A DNA stretch of 40,252 nt from Pelotomaculum isophthalicicum JI. Its GTDB lineage: Bacteria > Bacillota > Desulfotomaculia > Desulfotomaculales > Pelotomaculaceae. Below, in pieces: positions 2,661-40,252 of the stretch. Location of the stretch: positions 1 to 40,252 of the forward strand of contig NZ_JAKOAV010000031.1 of the NCBI RefSeq assembly GCF_029478095.1, in the 5' to 3' direction. The translations under genes and the position numbers were made by a program. Under the pieces are notes generated by a model that saw only the letters and a program-made list of their open reading frames with translations, ran no database searches and was not told where the DNA came from. Each line of letters begins with the position of its first letter. The first letter of the stretch is position 1.

Positions 2661-2807
2661 GTGATTTTTCTGCATAAATACATCTTAAGTTTAACTATAT
2701 TATTTTTAGCGTTGGCTTCCATAACTTACGGCGTGTGGCGAGGTGAAAATATCGAGGTATTGATGAAGGCAATTAACCTTTGTCTGGAGTGCATAGGCAT
2801 TGGTTAG
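2661..2807 (+). CDS. Small membrane protein with a CXXC motif (CD1871A-like)
   Basis: A protein of about 48 residues with one transmembrane helix (ILSLTILFLALASITYGVW) and a C-terminal CLECIGIG, where the CXXC is the only obvious functional motif. It matches my memory of the clostridial CD1871A-type CXXC family, usually found beside a 4Fe-4S membrane protein as here. The GTG at 2661 is a guess; a TTG at 2619 would add 14 residues and neither has a clear Shine-Dalgarno. It overlaps the next gene by 8 bases, which suggests translational coupling. Confidence 0.6.
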   Translation: MIFLHKYILSLTILFLALASITYGVWRGENIEVLMKAINLCLECIGIG

Positions 2808-3654
2808 TATTAAACGGCGACTAGTTCAACTGGCGGCTGCCTTTGCATTTAACAGCCATGTGGCAGGTTTCTTCAGGGGTACGATATACCGGGGAAACTT
2901 AAAACAAGTCTGCCTGCCGGTATTAAACTGTTATTCCTGCCCGGGCGCCATAGGGTCTTGTCCGGTCGGCTCCCTGCAAGCGGTAGCTTCTTTAAGCACA
3001 TTTTACTTTTCTTTTTATGTTACCGGTTTTCTGGCGCTGGTGGGAGTTTTTACAGGCAGGTTGGCCTGCGGCTGGTTGTGTCCATTCGGGTTAATTCAAG
3101 AACTGCTCTATAGAATTCCTTCACCCAAGTATTTATTGCCTGACTGGACTCGTTTTGTCAAATATTTTATATTAGTTATTCCTGTTCTTTTGCTGCCGCC
3201 CATGTTTGCCGGTGATATTAATCCGGGTACTCCTTTTTTCTGCAAGTGGCTTTGCCCCGCGGGAACGTTGGAAGCAGCTATCCCGCTTTCCGTCACAAAC
3301 TCCGGCATCCGCGGCGCCCTGGGATGGCTTTTCACCTGGCGCATTTCCTGGCTAGCCGCTATACTGATCTTTGTTATTTTGATTAAACGTGGATTTTGCC
3401 TGGTTTTGTGTCCGCTTGGGGCATTTTATTCCTTGTTCAACGGCATCAGCTTTCTTAAAATAAGTCGTGACCCTGAACGCTGCAACACCTGCGGTAAATG
3501 CGCCGTTATATGCCCCCTCCGCCTGCCTGAACGTACCATGAACCACCCTGAATGCACGCGTTGTCTTAAATGCGTGCACAACTGCCCGACCGGGGCGCTA
3601 AAATGGAGATTACAAATAACGGAAGGATGTGCGTCTGTACATGTCAAGAATTAA
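2800..3654 (+). CDS. NapH/CcoG-like 4Fe-4S membrane protein
   Basis: A 284-residue integral membrane protein with several Cys-rich turns between helices: CYSCPGAIGSCPVGSL near residue 44, CGWLCPFGLIQE near 90, CKWLCPAG near 149, and CLVLCPLGAFYSLFNG near 200. Two 4Fe-4S ferredoxin clusters follow (CNTCGKCAVICP and CTRCLKCVHNCPTGA). This is the layout of NapH-type quinol-oxidising electron carriers. With a CXXC peptide upstream and a thioredoxin-fold lipoprotein downstream, a role in moving electrons across the membrane to an extracytoplasmic redox partner is a reasonable inference. Start is TTG 2800 with GGAG 9 bases upstream, overlapping the previous stop. Confidence 0.8.
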   Translation: MVSIKRRLVQLAAAFAFNSHVAGFFRGTIYRGNLKQVCLPVLNCYSCPGAIGSCPVGSLQAVASLSTFYFSFYVTGFLALVGVFTGRLACGWLCPFGLIQELLYRIPSPKYLLPDWTRFVKYFILVIPVLLLPPMFAGDINPGTPFFCKWLCPAGTLEAAIPLSVTNSGIRGALGWLFTWRISWLAAILIFVILIKRGFCLVLCPLGAFYSLFNGISFLKISRDPERCNTCGKCAVICPLRLPERTMNHPECTRCLKCVHNCPTGALKWRLQITEGCASVHVKN

Positions 3655-4354
3655 GATGTTGATTGTTACATTCCTTGTCGGACTTCTTTTTATTTCCGGC
3701 TGCGGTAGGGAAGAGGCTAAACCGGCGCAGACCACACAAACTGATAATTCGCCGGTTCAAGAACAGCAACCTTCTCAGTCAAAGCTGGACACACCTGCCC
3801 AGCAGACACCTGAACAGAAATCCCAGCAGGGAGGTAATGTGAAAATTCAACAACTGCCGCAGCCGGAACAGAACACAAATAGCCAAAAGCCCGGGCAACC
3901 GCCCCAAAACGCGCCAGAAAAGGAGAAAATAAATTATTCTTTAACCGTTGGAGCCGCCTTCCCGTCATTCACACTCACTGATTTGAACGGCGGCGCAGTT
4001 AGTTCGAAAGATCTTTTTAACAATAGAATCACTTTAATTAATATTTGGAGCACTACCTGAGGACCGTGCGTCCAGGAGATGCCAACCCTGGAAGGGTTGA
4101 AAAAGAAATACGCCAAACAAGGTTTAAGCGTAATAGGTATCATCGTAGATTCCCGCAACACTGAAAGAGCCAGGCAGGTTATTGCCGCGAAAGAAGTAAA
4201 CTATACTAATCTTTTGGATGACGGGAGATTCAGTGAAAAAATCAACGCTGTGCCACAAACTTTTATTGTGGACGGTAACGGTTTGATTGTCCAATCGATA
4301 ACCGGTTCAAGAACTTTGCAGCAGTTCAGCCAAATTATCGATCAATGTATTTAG
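3641..4354 (+). CDS. TlpA/ResA-like thioredoxin-fold lipoprotein, probable selenoprotein (UGPC)
   Basis: The reading frame is open from 3641 to 4354 except for one TGA at 4058-4060. Read as selenocysteine the product is 237 residues. A lipoprotein signal peptide ends in the lipobox LFISGC (Cys21), then a Gln/Pro-rich linker (about 25-95), then a redoxin domain with FPSFTLTDLNGG, INIWSTT-U-GPC (Sec140, Cys143), VQEMPTLEGLKKKY and VPQTFIVDGNG. The UGA takes the place of the first Cys of the family's WCxPC site. Protein similarity continues unbroken after it, and a hairpin with the features of a bacterial SECIS lies 28 bases downstream. It ends a three-gene redox operon. The ATG at 3641 gives a standard lipoprotein signal; GTG 3629 is the alternative. 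A pseudogene by nonsense mutation is the other reading. Confidence 0.85.
4058..4099 (+). promoter_or_regulatory. UGA codon with candidate bacterial SECIS hairpin
   Basis: After the TGA at 4058-4060, CAACCC (4083-4088) pairs with GGGTTG (4094-4099) around the 5-nt loop TGGAA. The loop starts 28 nt after the UGA and has G in its second position, which agrees with the published bacterial SECIS rules as I know them (apical loop 16-37 nt after the UGA, a G among the first two loop bases). A weaker GGAC/GTCC hairpin sits directly after the UGA. Confidence 0.7.
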
Positions 4355-10915: not shown

Positions 10916-12691
10916 CTACAGCGAGGCGTTGATTTCCCTTATTGTTTCCTTCATCTTAATCAGTTCGTTATAATCCCTTTGCCAGATCTTTACCCTTTCA
11001 CGGCGTTCCTCCTCACTCAATCCCCTTTCCGCCCTGGCTTTCTGAAGGGCGGTACGCAGCCCTTGGGACACCGCGTCGGCGCGCAGTCTGAGCTCGCCGG
11101 CCACGTCCCGCACGCCTTCTTTCAGGCCGTCCGCCAGATCGTAGCGCACCCGGCCGCAGTTGCGGTCAAATAATTCCACCAGCTTATTTTTAGCGTTATT
11201 AAGAAGGTGGCCGCTAATCAACGCTTTCGGGAGTAAACCGGAGACAGACAGCATTTCCAGCGAAGGAATAAAGGTCGGGTGCTCTTCGAAGTGAAAAAAG
11301 AATTTTTTAGAACCCATAATGTATTCTCTGGATGATGATTTTTCCACCGGCACATCGAAAATCTCGGCCGAGATAGACATCATTCTATCTACAATCCCTT
11401 CGATCCGGCTAAAGAACCGCATCGACACTTTTTCAAATTGACTCCTTACCTTCAAGCGCTCTTCGTTGCGCTTTTCATTCAATACCGACTGGATCAGGTT
11501 TCTGCTGAAATCGTTCAGGCAATGAGTCAACTCTTTTGCTGACTTTTCGGACGACTCTTTTTTATAAGATTCCTCGATCAGATGTAATAGCTCACCTGTT
11601 TTAGCCGTCCTGAATTCATTAATATCCTCTTCGACCATAGCGCTCAAACGGTCCACCTCACGGTAGAGGAGATAAATCGAGTCTTCCCGCTCTTGTTCCA
11701 GCTTTTCCAGTTCAGCCGCGAAAAGTGTGATTTTTTCATCCAGATCCTGCAGCGAGCCGTCCATCGCCCGCTGCCAGAGCTGAAGTTCCAGTTCCAGTTC
11801 GTTGATGGTCCGTAACGCCCTGGCGGCGGAAGACTCCAGGAGCAGCCGCCCTTTATCGTTCCGGATAAAATTTCCCAGCACTTCTTCCAGCTTCTCAATG
11901 CCGCCGGCATCCACCCGCAGCTGTCCGTTTCCGCCGCCGGTTCTTCCGAGCAGGGCCTGGCGCGCCGAGAGAGGAATCAGGTCGTATTCTCCTTCGCCCA
12001 GGCTGTTCCACAGGGTCTCCCTGGTGAATGCCAATGCCTCGGTGATGTCTTCCGGTAAAGCGATATCGATTTTGTTCAATACGAAGAAAAGCTTGTTCAC
12101 ATATTTAGAAATATCTCTCAAGTAGTCAATTTCTATTTTACTGAGGGGGGCATCGATGGAAATCATGAAGATGGCGGCGTCGGAATGGGGAAGATAAGCG
12201 TACGCCGCGTCGGTATTATGCTCATAGACAGAACCGACACCCGGTGTGTCCACCAGGATGACGCCTTGTTTTAAAAATTCCGACGGGTGAATGATTTGCA
12301 CCTCGCGCAGTTTTTTGATGTTTTTGGGGTTTCCCCTTTCAGTAACGTAATCGGCGATCTGGCTGACCGGAATTGCTTTTCTGGTGCCGTCCAGGTAAAT
12401 GACAGAGGCGCCGAGTTGTTCACCGTGCTGGATTATGGTGGGAATGGCTGTCAGCGGCACGACGGCAGTCGGTAGCAGGTTGCCGCCCAGAAGAGCGTTG
12501 ATGAAGGTGGACTTGCCCCTTTTGAATTCACCGAGTATGACCAGGGTAAAAGTTTCCCGGGAAAGTTTATCCGCACTCTCTTTTAAAAGCGAAGCGGCTG
12601 GGCTGTTTCCCTTTTTTGCAGCAAAATCAACTGCTTCAGCCAGGATCTGCAAAAGGCTATTTTTCTTTAGCACATAATGGTCCAGCACCAC
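10916..12691 (-). CDS. Dynamin-like GTPase under fluoride-riboswitch control
   Basis: A 591-residue bacterial dynamin family protein. The GTPase domain shows GEFKRGKS (54-61, P-loop), the conserved TAVVPLTAIPT switch, DTPG (148-151) and NKID (206-209). Long helical stretches follow (about 290-400 and 520-591), as in dynamin stalks. Residues about 490-510 (LPKALISGHLLNNAKNKLVELFDRNCGRVRYDL) form a possible membrane-touching region. Such proteins remodel or protect membranes under stress in other bacteria. The start is GTG 12691 with AAAGGGTG just upstream. A fluoride riboswitch lies in the leader (12846-12765), so expression is expected to rise with fluoride. The gene with its divergent UspA neighbour is the intact copy of a duplicated cassette. 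Confidence 0.85.
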   Translation of the reverse strand: MVLDHYVLKKNSLLQILAEAVDFAAKKGNSPAASLLKESADKLSRETFTLVILGEFKRGKSTFINALLGGNLLPTAVVPLTAIPTIIQHGEQLGASVIYLDGTRKAIPVSQIADYVTERGNPKNIKKLREVQIIHPSEFLKQGVILVDTPGVGSVYEHNTDAAYAYLPHSDAAIFMISIDAPLSKIEIDYLRDISKYVNKLFFVLNKIDIALPEDITEALAFTRETLWNSLGEGEYDLIPLSARQALLGRTGGGNGQLRVDAGGIEKLEEVLGNFIRNDKGRLLLESSAARALRTINELELELQLWQRAMDGSLQDLDEKITLFAAELEKLEQEREDSIYLLYREVDRLSAMVEEDINEFRTAKTGELLHLIEESYKKESSEKSAKELTHCLNDFSRNLIQSVLNEKRNEERLKVRSQFEKVSMRFFSRIEGIVDRMMSISAEIFDVPVEKSSSREYIMGSKKFFFHFEEHPTFIPSLEMLSVSGLLPKALISGHLLNNAKNKLVELFDRNCGRVRYDLADGLKEGVRDVAGELRLRADAVSQGLRTALQKARAERGLSEEERRERVKIWQRDYNELIKMKETIREINASL

Positions 12692-12764: not shown

Positions 12765-12846
12765 AAAAAATAAAAACTCCCACCAATAAGAAAATATTGG
12801 TAGGAGCTATTAGCCTCGACAAGGCATATAAGTGAGCTCCATCACC
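12765..12846 (-). promoter_or_regulatory. Fluoride (crcB) riboswitch of the dynamin-like gene
   Basis: On the minus strand the aptamer begins GGTGATGGAGCTCAC, continues with GGCTAATAGCTCCTACC, and its 3' end forms the stem CCTACCAATA..TATTGGTGGG followed by TTTTT (12776-12772). This is the crcB motif with a covarying GGTGA/TCACT first helix and a terminator that competes with the aptamer. It is an ON switch by analogy with characterised fluoride riboswitches. TTGACT-17-TAAAAT lies upstream near 12892-12864. Confidence 0.85.
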
Positions 12847-12900
12847 TCATAATATCCGCTTATTAAAATTTTATTTGAAAAAAATTATTAAGTCAATATG

Positions 12901-13437: not shown

Positions 13438-13490
13438 TTATGAGTATTGTAAATATGTATTTACATTGTTCATAGTTTTATCATTTAAGA

Positions 13491-13558
13491 GGCGATGGAG
13501 TTCGCCTGATGCCTATGAGCGGCTAATGACTCCTACTTTTAAATAGTAGGGGTTTTTT
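13491..13558 (+). promoter_or_regulatory. Fluoride (crcB) riboswitch, orphan copy before the tungstate transporter
   Basis: GGCGATGGAGTTCGCC, the GAGCGGCTAATGACTCCTAC core, then the terminator stem CCTACT..AGTAGG and a T6 run. The 72 bases 13489-13560 are identical to 15791-15862. No ORF follows within 360 bases; instead a cofactor riboswitch and the ABC transporter come next. The original target gene was probably displaced. Confidence 0.9.
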
Positions 13559-13651
13559 ATGCGCGCGCGGCAAAGTGTTCCATAATTCATAGGGCTCACC
13601 TGCTGAGTTTTTATTTAACCAGTTATATCTAGAATAAATAAAATATTTTTA

Positions 13652-13747
13652 TCTCCGAGCCTTTTCACCTGAAACTCTAAAGTTATGGTGGTTGGCCGGC
13701 AGGGTTTGAAGGGAAACCTTCAAGCCTCCCATTGCGGAAAGGAGAGC
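13652..13747 (+). promoter_or_regulatory. Molybdenum/tungsten cofactor (Moco/Tuco-type) riboswitch
   Basis: The segment opens TCTCCGAGCC and closes with GCCTCCCATTGCGGAAAGGAGAGC, so TCTCC pairs with GGAGA. Inside lie CACC (13666-13669) with GGTG (13687-13690) and the hairpin TTGAAGG-GAAA-CCTTCAA (13706-13723). The order and the conserved CCTCCCATTGCGG block match my memory of the Moco RNA motif, and the genes downstream are a tungstate-type transporter. A covariance-model search would settle it. Confidence 0.65.
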
Positions 13748-13761
13748 TTAATTCGCACGTC

Positions 13762-15756: not shown

Positions 15757-15792
15757 TTGTAAATAATATTTATAATTTCATTATTTTTTCGA

Positions 15793-15860
15793 GGCGATGG
15801 AGTTCGCCTGATGCCTATGAGCGGCTAATGACTCCTACTTTTAAATAGTAGGGGTTTTTT
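15793..15860 (+). promoter_or_regulatory. Fluoride (crcB) riboswitch of the PAP2/MFS unit
   Basis: The same sequence as the copy at 13491, including the CCTACT..AGTAGG terminator and T6 run. It lies 90 bases before the ATG of the PAP2 gene, so it should control PAP2 and the MFS gene behind it. Confidence 0.9.
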
Positions 15861-16685: not shown

Positions 16686-17418
16686 ATGTGGAATATTATT
16701 TTACTTGGCCTGGTAAGCCTGTTTACCGATATCAGCAGTGAAATGATTTACCCATTAGTCCCCCTCTACCTGGTTGGGATATTGGGCGCTACTCCGGCCA
16801 TTGTAGGTCTTATCGAGGGTATTGCCGAAAGCCTGGCTAGCCTTTTGAAAGTTTTTTCCGGCGCTGTTTCAGATAAATTTCAGAAGAGAAAGCCACTTGC
16901 CATCTTTGGTTACGGGTTGTCAGGACTTTTTAAAATTCCAATAATTCTTGCCGTCTCCTGGACCTGGGTACTATGGGGGAGGATCGGCGACCGTTTCGGC
17001 AAGGGTGTGCGCACAGCGCCGCGAGACGCGTTAATTGCCGAGTCTGCTAATCCGGAAAAAATGGGCTGGTCATTCGGGTTGCATCGCATGTTGGATACTC
17101 TGGGCGCGGTAATCGGTGTTGCCCTGGCTTTTTATTTCTTCACTAAATACGAGGGCAATTACAAAGCCGTTTTCATCTGGTCATTAGTACCGGCATCCCT
17201 GGGTGTAGGCCTTCTATTCCTAATAAGGGAAATGAAGGCGAAAAATGAAAACTTGAAAAAACATTTCTCGGCAAACTGGCGCTCTCTTCATCCGCGTCTG
17301 AAAAAATTTTTAATAGTAGTGTTCCTTTTCGCTCTGGGCAACTCTTCCAACCAATTTCTTTTACTGCGTGCAAGCGAATTGGGTTACAGTGCCCAATCCA
17401 TCATCCTTCTCTATTTGC
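16686..17418 (+). pseudogene. MFS permease, 3' end deleted at a junction with hppA
   Basis: About 244 codons of a major facilitator permease, beginning MWNIILLGLVSLFTDISSEM, with the loop motif GAVSDKFQKRKPLAI and RIGDRFGKGVRTAPRDALIA, known from a group of small MFS proteins of about 400 residues. Similarity stops at SIILLYLP near 17418. From there the frame only reads the reverse strand of the pyrophosphatase gene up to a stop at 17645. About 150 residues and five or six helices are missing. AGAGGTG precedes the ATG. It shares the fluoride-riboswitch transcript with PAP2. Confidence 0.75.
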
Positions 17419-19228
17419 CGGCCGTGAGCAGGACCGCTAAGAAGAGCCCGGTGATAATCACGCCCATCAACATGCCTCCCAGCGCCTTTGCTCCCAGCAA
17501 GAAGCCAACCAGCAAGGGGACGATAACCGGGATCAATCCAGGAACCATCATTTCTTTAATAGCACGCTTGGTGACGATATCGACGCAGCGTCCATATTCG
17601 GGCCGCGCCTTGCCTTCCATCAGGCCTTTAATTTCTTTAAACTGACGGCGCACCTCGTTAACTACCTCGTAGGCCGCCCGCCCGACGGCGCCCATGGCCA
17701 GCGCGGAGAAGATGAAGGGTAAAGCGCCGCCGATTAATAGGCCGGCCAGCACCCAGGGATCTTCCACTAAGAAGCTGATCTTTTCCAAGATGCCTGCCTC
17801 AAGCCGAACCCGGGTGATTTCCTGGGTATACGCCGAAAACAGGACGATGGCCGCCAATCCCGCCGATCCGATGGCGTAGCCTTTGGTCACGGCCTTGGTG
17901 GTGTTGCCTACCGCGTCCAACGGGTCGGTAATGTTGCGGACTTCCGGCGGCAGTTCGGCCATCTCAGCGATGCCGCCGGCGTTGTCGGTGATCGGGCCGT
18001 AAGAGTCGATGGCCACGATGATCCCGGTCATCGAGAGCATCGCCATAGAGGCGATGCCAATCCCGTAAAGGCCGCCAATTACGTAGGATACCAGGATCCC
18101 GGCGACAATGGTGAGAGCCGGCGAAATACTGGCTTCCATTGCCACCGACAGGCCGCTGATGATGTTGGTGGCGTGGCCGGACTGCGAGGCCCTGGCAATG
18201 GACTTAACCGGGCGGAAACGCTTGGAGGTATAGTAATCAGTCAGGAAGACGATGATTAACGTGACTGCCACGCCCACCAGCGCCGCGTAGAAAAACCGGG
18301 GCGAGCCGAAAATATAGGTGGTGGCCGGGTAAAACCCGATCAGGGCGATTATCGCCGCCGCTGCCAGGCCCTTGTAAAGGGCGGTCATGATTTCCTGTCC
18401 CTGGCTCAAACGGACGAAATAGCTGCCGATGATCGTGGCGATTATGGCGATACCCCCCAAGACCAGGGGATAGATGATATACTGCTCCTTGCCGGGGAAA
18501 AAGAGCTGTCCCAGCAGCATGGCCCCGATGGCCGTGATGGCGTAAGTCTCGAAGAGGTCAGCGGCCATACCGGCACAGTCACCCACGTTATCGCCCACAT
18601 TGTCGGCTACGACAGCCGGGTTGCGCGGGTCGTCTTCCGGGATGCCGGCTTCCACCTTGCCAACCAGATCGGCGCCGACGTCGGCGCTCTTAGTATAGAT
18701 GCCGCCACCCAAACGGGCGAAAACGCTGATCAAGCTGCCGCCAAAACCAAGGCCGATCAGGTAATTCGGGTCCCTGAACAGTGCGTACATCCCGGCTACG
18801 CCCAGCAGCCCCAGGCTCACGCACATCAGGCCGGTGACAGCGCCGCCCTTAAAGGCTACCACAAGGGCAAAGGGCAGGCCCTTTTTGGCCGCCTCGCCGA
18901 CACGCAGGTTGCTCCGCACCGCCACGTTCATCCCGACATAGCCGCACAGGCTGGAGAAAACTGCCCCGATGATAAAGCCCAAGGTAGTGATCCAGCCCAA
19001 TCCGAAATAAAGAATAATAACAATGATAATCCCGACAACCGCGATGGTCTTATACTGGCGGTTCAAGTAGGCCATAGCGCCTTCCTGGATCGCGCCGGAG
19101 ATCTCGATCATTCGCTTCGAGCCGGGCGGCTGCCTCAAAACCCAAACGGTGAGGTAACCGGCAAACAAAATACCGATTACGGCCGCGCAAACTGCATATA
19201 AAGGAAACGCCGCGTTTTCCACTTGCAA
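17411..19228 (-). CDS. hppA: Membrane-bound proton-translocating pyrophosphatase, C-terminus truncated
   Basis: 605 residues of an ion-pumping pyrophosphatase, which couples PPi hydrolysis to proton export. Signature [11 protein letters not shown] (183-193), DNVGDNVGD (209-217) and the [10 protein letters not shown] box are present; Lys in that box marks the K-independent type in known members. The protein stops right after [11 protein letters not shown], where full-length proteins go on for about 60-80 residues with GGAWDN and the final catalytic Asp/Lys helices. The last two codons AAA TAG come from across a deletion junction. Activity is therefore doubtful. Start TTG 19228 after AGGTGG. 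Two fluoride riboswitches in tandem precede it; cytosolic pyrophosphatases are a classic fluoride target. Confidence 0.85.
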
Positions 19229-19375: not shown

Positions 19376-19439
19376 ACAAAAACCCCCACCCGAAGGTAGG
19401 AGTCATCAGCTTTTTAAGGCTCAGGCGAACTCCATCGCC
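19376..19439 (-). promoter_or_regulatory. Fluoride (crcB) riboswitch, promoter-distal one of a tandem pair before hppA
   Basis: On the minus strand GGCGATGGAGTTCGCC, then GAGCC..AGCTGATGACTCCTACC, then stem CCTACC-TTCG-GGTGGG and a T5 run. It follows the other aptamer by about 30 bases and lies 148 bases before the hppA start. Confidence 0.9.
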
Positions 19440-19467
19440 CCCCGCAGCGGGGATATTACTTTGTTTA

Positions 19468-19535
19468 AAAAATAAAAACCCCTACCATCACCGGTAGGAG
19501 CCATTAGCGATTCGCGTTTGGCGAGCTCCATCGCC
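19468..19535 (-). promoter_or_regulatory. Fluoride (crcB) riboswitch, promoter-proximal one of a tandem pair before hppA
   Basis: On the minus strand GGCGATGGAGCTCGCC, then ATCGCTAATGGCTCCTACC, then stem CTACCGG..ATGGTAG and GGGTTTTTATTTT. It has its own terminator, separate from the second aptamer. Confidence 0.9.
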
Positions 19536-19552
19536 ATATATTATTATAACAT

Positions 19553-19644: not shown

Positions 19645-19693
19645 AAAATAGTTGTTGTAAGTAGTATTTATACGTTATTTTTCCTTTTTCCGA

Positions 19694-19761
19694 GGCGATG
19701 GGGTTCGCCTTATGCCTGTGAGTGGCTAATGACTCCTACTTTCTAAAAGTAGGGGTTTTTT
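19694..19761 (+). promoter_or_regulatory. Fluoride (crcB) riboswitch of the UspA/antiporter unit
   Basis: GGCGATGGGGTTCGCC, then GAGTGGCTAATGACTCCTAC, then stem CCTACTT..AAGTAGG and a T6 run. It differs from the copies at 13491 and 15793 at a few positions only. It precedes the UspA gene by about 117 bases. Confidence 0.9.
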
Positions 19762-28276: not shown

Positions 28277-28387
28277 CCACCATGAGGGGCGTGTGGGCAC
28301 TGGAAATCCTCTAAATTTAAAAAACTACTTGTGAAATATTTAAAGTTGCAGTATCATTAGAACAATTAAATATAGTAAACTGTTGAT

Positions 28388-28646
28388 TGAGAAGAGTACA
28401 TAGTTTGGATTGCTTTACAGAGAGTTGCAAGGTGCTGGGATTGCAATAAGCAACGTACTATGGAATGGGCTCATAAAGGTGGGAGGAAAGGTCTTTGACT
28501 AAGTAATGCCCAACGGGATTTCCACCCGTTACCATTGGAATGCGTATGATGGTACGTAAATGAGTGGATGCGTTTGCATCAATTTAGGTGGCACCACAGA
28601 AGTTATAAGCTTTTGTCCTATGCAAGACGGGACAAAAGCTTTTTTA
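28388..28646 (+). promoter_or_regulatory. T-box leader (tRNA-Trp) of the trp operon
   Basis: The leader has AGAGAGTTGC and a stem I in which TGG (28461-28463, Trp codon) is a good specifier, followed by A. The T-box proper is TTTAGGTGGCACCACAG (28583-28599). A terminator AAGCTTTTGTCC (28607-28618) with GGGACAAAAGCTT and TTTTTT follows. Uncharged tRNA-Trp would favour the antiterminator and turn the trp genes on. Specifier assignment fits the genes downstream. Confidence 0.85.
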
Positions 28647-39197: not shown

Positions 39198-39445
39198 TCC
39201 CTATCTAAACTTAAGTCAAAGATTATAAAATTATATTTCTTTATAAAAATATATAAAATAACCATAATGTCACCTGATGGCAGAAAGTATAATATATTCA
39301 ACCATGGCTTTAAAACAAGGCTATCTATAGTAACGGCAGTTATATTGAGAAGTATCGGCAATAACGCTCCTTCCAACACCCCAAGAATCAATGCCCCCGC
39401 GGCTATTGAAATAAAACAGTGCCATAAATTGGTTCCTGTAATAAT
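39194..39445 (-). pseudogene. Membrane protein of the agr-like operon, 5' end lost at an intron boundary
   Basis: About 80 codons with three hydrophobic helices: LWHCFISIAAGALILGVLEG, ALLPILLNITAVTIDSLVLK and FLPSGDIMVILYIFI. Reading the frame upstream leads directly into group II intron domains V and VI, so the true N-terminus is missing. It may have been an extra sensor or ligand-binding membrane segment for the kinase, whose gene starts at its stop codon. If the original start lay near 39440 only a few codons are lost. Confidence 0.5.
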
Positions 39446-40136
39446 CGAGTAGCTAAAAGTCGGGAAAATTAATCCCGACTTTTTGGCTCTCACAGAACCG
39501 TACGTACGGGCCTCGTATACGGCTCCTGACAAACCTCGGTCGTTATCATTCATAATAACAAGGCAAAATCCCGACTTTTACCTTTGTCATATCATACAGC
39601 CTAAGCGTATCGAACCACCGGTTTGGAAGTGCCATGCTGATTAACGGGCTTGCTGAGTTTCTCCAACGTGTCACAGAAATTTTCTCAAAATCTCCGTGAT
39701 AGCCCATCCGGCGCAACTGCTTATGCAGCGCTTTCCATGACTTCCATTCCTTCATCTTTTTCATCCGGAGTCGCCTTCTTATCCAGCCCATCAGGTCCTC
39801 CAGCAATGTTTTGCAGTTGGCTATCCTGAAATAGTTAATCCAGCCGCGCAGTACAGGATTGATCTCTTTTATGATGTCTTCCAAATTCTTCCCCTGATTC
39901 CTTTTGGTCAATTTCCTGATCTTATCCTTGAACCGCTTGATTCTTTTGGGGTGTATGATCACCCACTTCTCGCAAATGTTGACTCCTAAGTAGGCCACAC
40001 CTTGGTATACGCTGGTTATGCAAGTCTTTTCCCGGTTCACCTTTAGCTTCAGGTCTTTTTCCAGTATCTTTATGGCATAGGCCATGTACTGCCCTACCTG
40101 TTTCCGGCTTTTTCCGAAAATCAGGAGGTGAGTAGC
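39446..40136 (-). mobile_element. Group II intron, 3' part, interrupted by a second intron
   Basis: On the minus strand the end of a reverse transcriptase ORF (40136-39546) is followed by domain V at 39526-39495 (GAGCCGTATAC..GTACGGTTC), domain VI at 39484-39455 (AAAGTCGGG..CCCGACTTT) and TAGCTACTCG at the 3' end near 39446. The intron sits upstream of the agr-like operon. Its 5' part lies beyond the window because another intron splits the ORF at 40137. Confidence 0.8.
39546..40136 (-). pseudogene. Group II intron reverse transcriptase/maturase, C-terminal half
   Basis: Starts in the middle of RT domain 5 with LLIFGKSRKQVGQYM, normally preceded by YADD, then LKVNREKTCITSVYQGVAYLG (RT domain 7) and the maturase X domain INPVLRGWINYFRIANCKTLLEDLMGWIRRRLR, and a short C-terminus. 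The ORF start at 40151 falls within intron sequence. The 5' half, including the catalytic Asp pair, is on the far side of the nested intron. Confidence 0.8.
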
Positions 40137-40252
40137 CCAGGGGAATCTCACCCCCAGGCCCTCTCAGAACCGGACGTGAACCTCTCAGCTCATCCGGCTC
40201 CCATTATCCAGCCCCAGGAAAAATTCCCATTTGCCAGTGTACGAACAGTTTT
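40137..40252 (-). mobile_element. 3' end of a second, nested group II intron
   Basis: Minus strand: domain V begins GAGCCGGATGAG near 40200 and ends CACGTCCGGTTC near 40168; domain VI is GGGGGTGAGATTCCCC (about 40160-40141); the intron closes with GGGCTACTCAC near 40137. The flanking ORF reads on as LLIFGKS. The rest lies outside the window. Confidence 0.75.

Follow-up and report, generated by a model that had tools for sequence, protein, structure and literature searches.

The question raised by this locus is whether a TGA codon at the redox site of a thioredoxin-like gene ends translation or is read as selenocysteine (Sec). The gene lies at positions 3641 to 4354 on the forward strand of the window (the whole stretch of 40,252 nucleotides of Pelotomaculum isophthalicicum JI DNA analyzed here) and was predicted to encode a TlpA/ResA-like redoxin lipoprotein. 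Its frame, 237 codons from 3641 to 4351, was open apart from one TGA at 4058 to 4060 and closed at the TAG at 4352 to 4354, giving a product of 237 amino acids with Sec at position 140. The start was uncertain, with GTG 3629, ATG 3641, and ATG 3656 all possible. Under the standard code, the gene broke into two open reading frames (ORFs), 3629 to 4060 and 4079 to 4354. Thus, the original prediction was right that a lone TGA interrupts the frame and that standard annotation would report two broken ORFs. It had also placed the TGA at the first Cys of the thioredoxin redox site, and this was borne out by translation, alignments, and the codons of orthologues: candidate Sec140 occupies the first Cys position of the WxxxCxxC site, read here as WSTT-U-GPC. 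Cys143 (codon at 4067 to 4069 on the forward strand), the presumed resolving cysteine of the UxxC motif, was invariant in alignments of orthologues and homologues. The best explanation, to which we assign a probability of roughly 0.94, is that the gene is undamaged and its product is a selenoprotein with Sec at residue 140, and this reading of 3641 to 4354 is well supported by sequence comparison.

The read-through protein matched the Pfam families Redoxin (PF08534; E value, 1.7e-20) and AhpC-TSA (PF00578; 3e-19) from residue 103 onward. Both matches spanned the TGA, in keeping with the earlier claim that redoxin sequence resumes behind it. The Redoxin domain, with a thioredoxin fold, covered residues 103 to 225 (3947 to 4315, forward strand). 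An AlphaFold2 model computed from an alignment of eight orthologues had a mean pLDDT of 69.8 and a pTM of 0.58, with 10-residue block means of 85 to 95 over the redoxin domain and under 50 over residues 19 to 92. In the model, a strand (residues 131 to 136) came before the site, and residue 140 immediately preceded a helix (residues 141 to 156), which we take to be the usual position of the thioredoxin nucleophile. The closest solved folds were Bacillus ResA proteins, with a TM-score of up to 0.87 by target; the score by query was only about 0.5 because the long Gln/Pro-rich linker between the signal peptide and the redoxin domain is disordered. ResA was also the top sequence match among solved structures (E value, 3.7e-16), and the description of the protein as TlpA-like therefore held. 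Against the curated NCBIfam models, the protein scored 71.4 bits with the ResA model NF002854 (cutoff, 170) and was therefore not filed as ResA; it scored 41.7 bits with the WAxxUGC_long selenoprotein model NF041054 (cutoff, 300), and the NCBIfam search with this protein returned no model above its cutoff. At the N terminus, a putative signal peptide (3641 to 3703, forward strand), as read from the sequence, ended in a lipobox-like FISG-C21. The residues G20 and C21 were invariant across eight aligned orthologues, and the redoxin is a putative lipid-anchored lipoprotein.

Reading UGA as Sec requires dedicated machinery, and the genes selA, selB, selC, and selD, whose presence had been proposed as a check, were all found in the window's own genome (3.6 Mb in 93 contigs). 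The tRNA-Sec scored 66.7 bits against an Rfam cutoff of 47 and was the sole one of 15 matches in the genome above it; ARAGORN called a tRNA-SeC with the anticodon TCA. Among control genomes, 5 of 14 had a tRNA-Sec over the Rfam cutoff. The selA gene (E value, 3.8e-181) adjoined selB on contig 1, and selD (2.0e-121) had its own in-frame UGA in the active site SCAGUAAK, downstream of which a hairpin of 9 bp closed by the loop GUA was present. SelB exceeded its cutoff at two places, contig 1:208037-209920 (L037) and contig 54:2149-4035 (L036). A second SelB as a dedicated partner of the window hairpin was considered and dropped, the two copies being 85% identical over 601 aligned residues. The same-species assembly G112 gave two SelB matches, one with a bit score identical to that of the contig 54 copy, and the same-genus genome G001 gave one. 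A tRNA-Sec (E value of 1e-9 or better) was found in five of the six genomes with a UGA orthologue of the redoxin gene and in five of the six with a Cys orthologue, and the machinery alone therefore does not discriminate between the two states. In the UGA genome G081, an assembly of 210 contigs, selB was present and no tRNA-Sec exceeded the Rfam cutoff; G082, of the same genus, had one.

When 113 genomes of the order were searched with a profile, 12 places had an E value of 2.5e-50 or better, the next match standing at 6.0e-23, and the 12 places above this gap were defined as orthologues. The site codon was TGA in six of them (G000, which is the window genome, and G045, G096, G092, G094, and G081) and TGC in the other six (G019, G020, G015, G004, G009, and G055). 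Thus, homologues with Cys in place of the UGA, which the original prediction had suggested looking for, made up half of the orthologues. Inside the matched region, none of the 12 contained any other stop, so the decay that would speak against translation was not seen there. Among named records, UGA was found in Desulforamulus aeronauticus DSM 10349 (L055), Desulforamulus putei DSM 12395 (L056), and an uncultured Desulfotomaculum metagenome-assembled genome (MAG) (L054); these match G045, G094, and G096 at the site and were not counted as extra cases. The named Cys forms include Pelotomaculum MAGs. Both states occurred inside a single genus (g21), and such close Sec and Cys relatives offer material for studying the change between them. 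For the part after the UGA, the three closest pairs of UGA orthologues gave dN/dS values of 0.014/0.174, 0.127/1.34, and 0.117/1.02, showing purifying selection on this stretch.

Active-site UGA codons were also found beyond the orthologues. A distant branch (f6/f7) carried TGA in the motif FFSxGU(G/R)xC in G028, G029, G043, and G053, and at least six more active-site UGA redoxins were present in 398 genomes of the phylum together with G064 of the order. The further UxxC loci were L223 (G064), L204 and L216 (both G256), L218 (G243), L219 (G230), and L220 (G127), with the motifs FFSPTUPPC, FFSTGUGPC, FFSTGUGAC, FFSLGUPGC (in two genomes), and WATTUPYC. Two other candidates were set aside. In L217 (G355), the TGA fell at a Trp before an intact CxxC (NF-TGA-SLNCSYC), possibly through a sequence error or in a pseudogene, and this locus was excluded from the count; in L222 (G046), the TGA lay outside the redox site.

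A candidate SECIS hairpin was located at 4083 to 4099 on the forward strand by folding and by comparison of orthologues, with a stem formed by 4083 to 4089 and 4093 to 4099 and a GGA loop at 4090 to 4092. The original prediction had described a 6-bp stem with a TGGAA loop 28 nt downstream; the hairpin does exist, and those dimensions need correcting to 7 bp, a GGA loop, and a distance of 29 nt from the UGA to the loop, the earlier description being the same hairpin minus its last U-A pair. According to the bSECISearch rules as given in PMC13188914, a bacterial SECIS has a loop of 3 to 9 nt with a G among its first two bases, a stem of 4 to 16 bp, a distance of 16 to 37 nt from the UGA, and a minimum free energy of -7.5 kcal/mol or lower. 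The 3-nt GGA loop, the 7-bp stem, and the 29-nt distance agree with these published rules, which were applied by hand. Folds of about 50 nt gave -16.0 and -14.3 kcal/mol, values to which another small hairpin contributed in each case. When 4055 to 4105 was shuffled 200 times with dinucleotides preserved, 18 shuffles folded equally well (z of -1.59). When the window peptide was recoded with synonymous codons, the full 7-bp stem appeared at the exact place in 1.0% of draws; anywhere within the allowed spacing, stems of at least 7 bp appeared in 2.1% of draws and stems of at least 6 bp in 9.6%. The window hairpin by itself is weak evidence and unexceptional.

The hairpin stands above chance because it recurs jointly with the UGA in all six UGA orthologues. 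In the main count, which took in all 41 rows of the redoxin alignment, the hairpin was present at the exact place with 7/7 pairs in these six, through four distinct stem sequences, and synonymous draws gave the stem in 1 to 5% of cases for each of them. The alignment of the six sequences was paired in 42 of 42 cells and the hairpin covaried, with two of the seven pairs altered on both sides, in one sequence each. When the register of the alignment was slid, 26 to 55% of cells paired, and the observed values were reached by 17 of 500 shuffles. None of the 31 Cys homologues had the full hairpin at this place. This is partly because their peptide differs: 26 of the 31 Cys rows could not give the stem, which appeared in none of 5,000 synonymous draws, and among the Cys orthologues only the G055 peptide permits it (8% of draws). 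The Gly codon of the LEGL motif sits in the 3' arm of the hairpin, and this residue was Gly in all six UGA orthologues and in none of the six Cys orthologues, which had Gln, Lys, Arg, or Glu. With a looser definition (at least 6 bp, a G among the first two bases of the loop, and 16 to 37 nt), 4 of 17 scored Cys rows were positive, whereas the two rows scored from the distant UGA branch were both negative. The exact-place hairpin was found in none of the four f6/f7 UGA rows (L023, L024, L030, and L033). These rows carried an alternative stem, GCUGC-AGUU-GCAGC, which may be read as a different candidate SECIS.

Other readings of the TGA were weighed. As TGC and TGA differ by one base and five same-family orthologues have TGC, a Cys codon may have turned into TGA in a dead pseudogene or through a sequencing or assembly error. 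In addition, the profile search found no close orthologue in the same-genus genome G001 (98% complete) and no redoxin match in the same-species assembly G112 (64% complete), and the gene was therefore unseen in a second strain. However, TGA stands at the same codon in five other genomes, which partly refutes an error or a pseudogene; the hairpin co-occurs with it, and beyond the UGA all six UGA orthologues keep an open frame, for which dN/dS is low in the closest pairs. Such an origin of the TGA thus seems very improbable. Even less credence is given to true termination at the UGA with re-initiation at ATG 4079 and the production of two separate proteins. The two ORFs on which this would depend do exist, but termination would cut a single thioredoxin fold between the strand at 131 to 136 and the helix at 141 to 156, the second ORF alone would miss much of that fold, and six orthologues have Cys at the UGA position in one continuous frame.

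Decoding of the UGA as Trp or Cys, through an altered code or a suppressor, is the least probable reading of all. UGA closed just 2 of the 20 long window ORFs sampled, as such decoding would favor, but it does terminate ORFs in the window, and the genome has a Sec-type tRNA with a TCA anticodon and all of the sel genes. The UGA falls at the redox Cys in all six UGA orthologues, and the conserved hairpin also argues against an altered code or a suppressor.

Translation of the UGA as Sec, the core of the original prediction, is supported by the sel genes, by the UGA and Cys orthologues, and by purifying selection. SelB carrying Sec-tRNA(UCA) would bind the hairpin after the UGA, and the ribosome would place Sec at residue 140. 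The product would be an exported, lipid-anchored thioredoxin-fold protein with the redox site Sec140-Gly-Pro-Cys143, probably a ResA/TlpA-type thiol-disulfide (selenenylsulfide) reductase that acts outside the cytoplasmic membrane.

A source of electrons for this protein is suggested by the gene directly upstream, which was absent from the earlier description of the locus. This gene (2800 to 3654, forward strand) shares 14 nt with the redoxin gene and, as judged from its Pfam match (Fer4_5), motifs, hydropathy peaks, and conservation as a neighbor, encodes a 4Fe-4S membrane protein, the proposed electron donor. The protein has four motifs of the CxxCP or CxxxCP type and, toward its C terminus, two 4Fe-4S motifs. 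A 4Fe-4S homologue was found in the locus for all 10 UGA rows (orthologues and distant branch) and for three of the six further UGA genes listed, so that 13 of 16 active-site-UGA relatives among the matches listed had an adjacent 4Fe-4S gene. No 4Fe-4S match was found at L216 and L219 (flank of about 1 kb) or at L223, a locus starting at contig base 58. The misses at L216 and L219 are probably real, because L218 and L220 show the partner within the same flank.

The Cys orthologues had the 4Fe-4S gene in five of six cases, G055 being without it within 1.5 kb. The 25 Cys outgroup rows were hand-picked from loci with a 4Fe-4S match, and their pairing is no evidence. At unselected loci, a 4Fe-4S neighbor (E value of 1e-20 or better) was found in 41 of 72 for L057 to L128 and in 5 of 23 for L186 to L209 (Cys); for L017 to L035, at the same threshold, it was found in 5 of 19, four of those five being UGA loci. 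The pairing of redoxin and 4Fe-4S protein is thus not restricted to redoxins with Sec. The conserved adjacency suggests an electron-transfer pair in which the 4Fe-4S membrane protein would reduce the redoxin. It would probably take electrons from a donor in the cytoplasm, pass them across the membrane, and keep the redoxin reduced, as CcdA/DsbD does for other proteins of this kind.

The direction of the Sec/Cys change was examined with a redoxin tree of 41 rows, in which the Sec column was masked, and a partner tree of 40 rows, from which G055 was left out; the root was placed between the Sec-bearing lineages and the 25 Cys rows. Three state changes were needed on the redoxin tree and two on the partner tree, compared with about nine for shuffled labels. 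All Sec rows as one group were rejected, with a p-AU of 0.0165 on the partner tree and 7.8e-5 for the 12 redoxin orthologues. Parsimony favors one gain of Sec followed by one or two reversions to Cys, by a margin of one step: the Pelotomaculum-like group would have reverted, as would G055 according to the redoxin tree, and separate gains cost one extra step. Several forks in the trees were weakly supported. A single gain for the window, G081, and the Desulforamulus-type lineage is suggested because the place and form of the hairpin are common to all.

According to PMC13188914, Sec-to-Cys change is rare, and the documented cases are mainly FdhA and SelD. A broader proposal, which we hold tentatively and at somewhat less than even odds, is that a CcdA/DsbD-free module of 4Fe-4S protein and exported Sec-redoxin brings cytoplasmic reducing power to the outer side of the membrane in Desulfotomaculum-type anaerobes, with Sec gained once and at least two reversions, the SECIS lost each time and the partner lost in G055. 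If so, the short list of bacterial Sec-to-Cys reversions would grow.

Table 1 of PMC13188914 already has predicted UxxC selenoproteins in the Redoxin family (PF08534) and in the thiol-disulfide isomerase-like group (cd02966), and the window protein therefore joins a known type. Compared by the table entries alone, the domain family and the UxxC motif are the same, whereas the Table 1 rows examined mention no gene pair with a membrane 4Fe-4S protein. Searching that paper for the words Desulfotomaculum and Pelotomaculum gave no hit. For Desulfotomaculum reducens, the selenoproteins listed in PMC1794560 are SelD, FdhA (2), FrhD (2), HdrA, a SelW-like protein, and a DsbA-like protein, with no redoxin among them. 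A literature search over titles and abstract openings, with subscription papers mostly outside it, found no paper on the gene pair or the orthologue group. UxxC redoxin selenoproteins being already known, the partner gene and the probable reversions were less expected.

The Cys forms ResA, TlpA, and StoA share the thioredoxin fold and redox-site position and include the nearest solved structures, but the window protein has Sec for the first Cys and a Fer4_5 neighbor and scores under the NCBIfam cutoffs. NF041054 is likewise ResA-like with Sec in its motif, UGC by name, whereas the window motif is UxxC. In Lachnospiraceae, Oscillospiraceae, and Clostridium, Cys TlpA-like redoxins and Fer4_5 proteins are likewise encoded by neighboring genes; these pairs differ in that the redoxin has Cys at the site, the two genes often come in reverse order, and no complete hairpin is found at the same place. 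Active-site selenoproteins in such anaerobes have probably been overlooked or marked as broken, because the standard code yields two ORFs and no NCBIfam model exceeds its cutoff. The pairing with a membrane iron-sulfur protein offers a candidate electron route to an exported selenoprotein.

Elsewhere in the window, six fluoride riboswitch matches were found within 7 kb, at 12794-12855 (-), 13482-13542 (+), 15784-15844 (+), 19390-19448 (-), 19488-19544 (-), and 19685-19745 (+). A tandem pair was located upstream of the gene for a membrane H+-pyrophosphatase (17411-19228, -), one match was flanked by a universal stress gene and an ABC transporter, and others preceded a PAP2 phosphatase (15951), a universal stress protein (19867), and a dynamin-like gene (10916-12691, -). 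A molybdenum cofactor riboswitch (13641-13760, +) was located upstream of ABC transporter genes (13926 and 14606), and a T-box leader was found at 28374-28623 (+). Close to the window end, there were two group II intron matches, at 39444-39527 and 40127-40202 (-).
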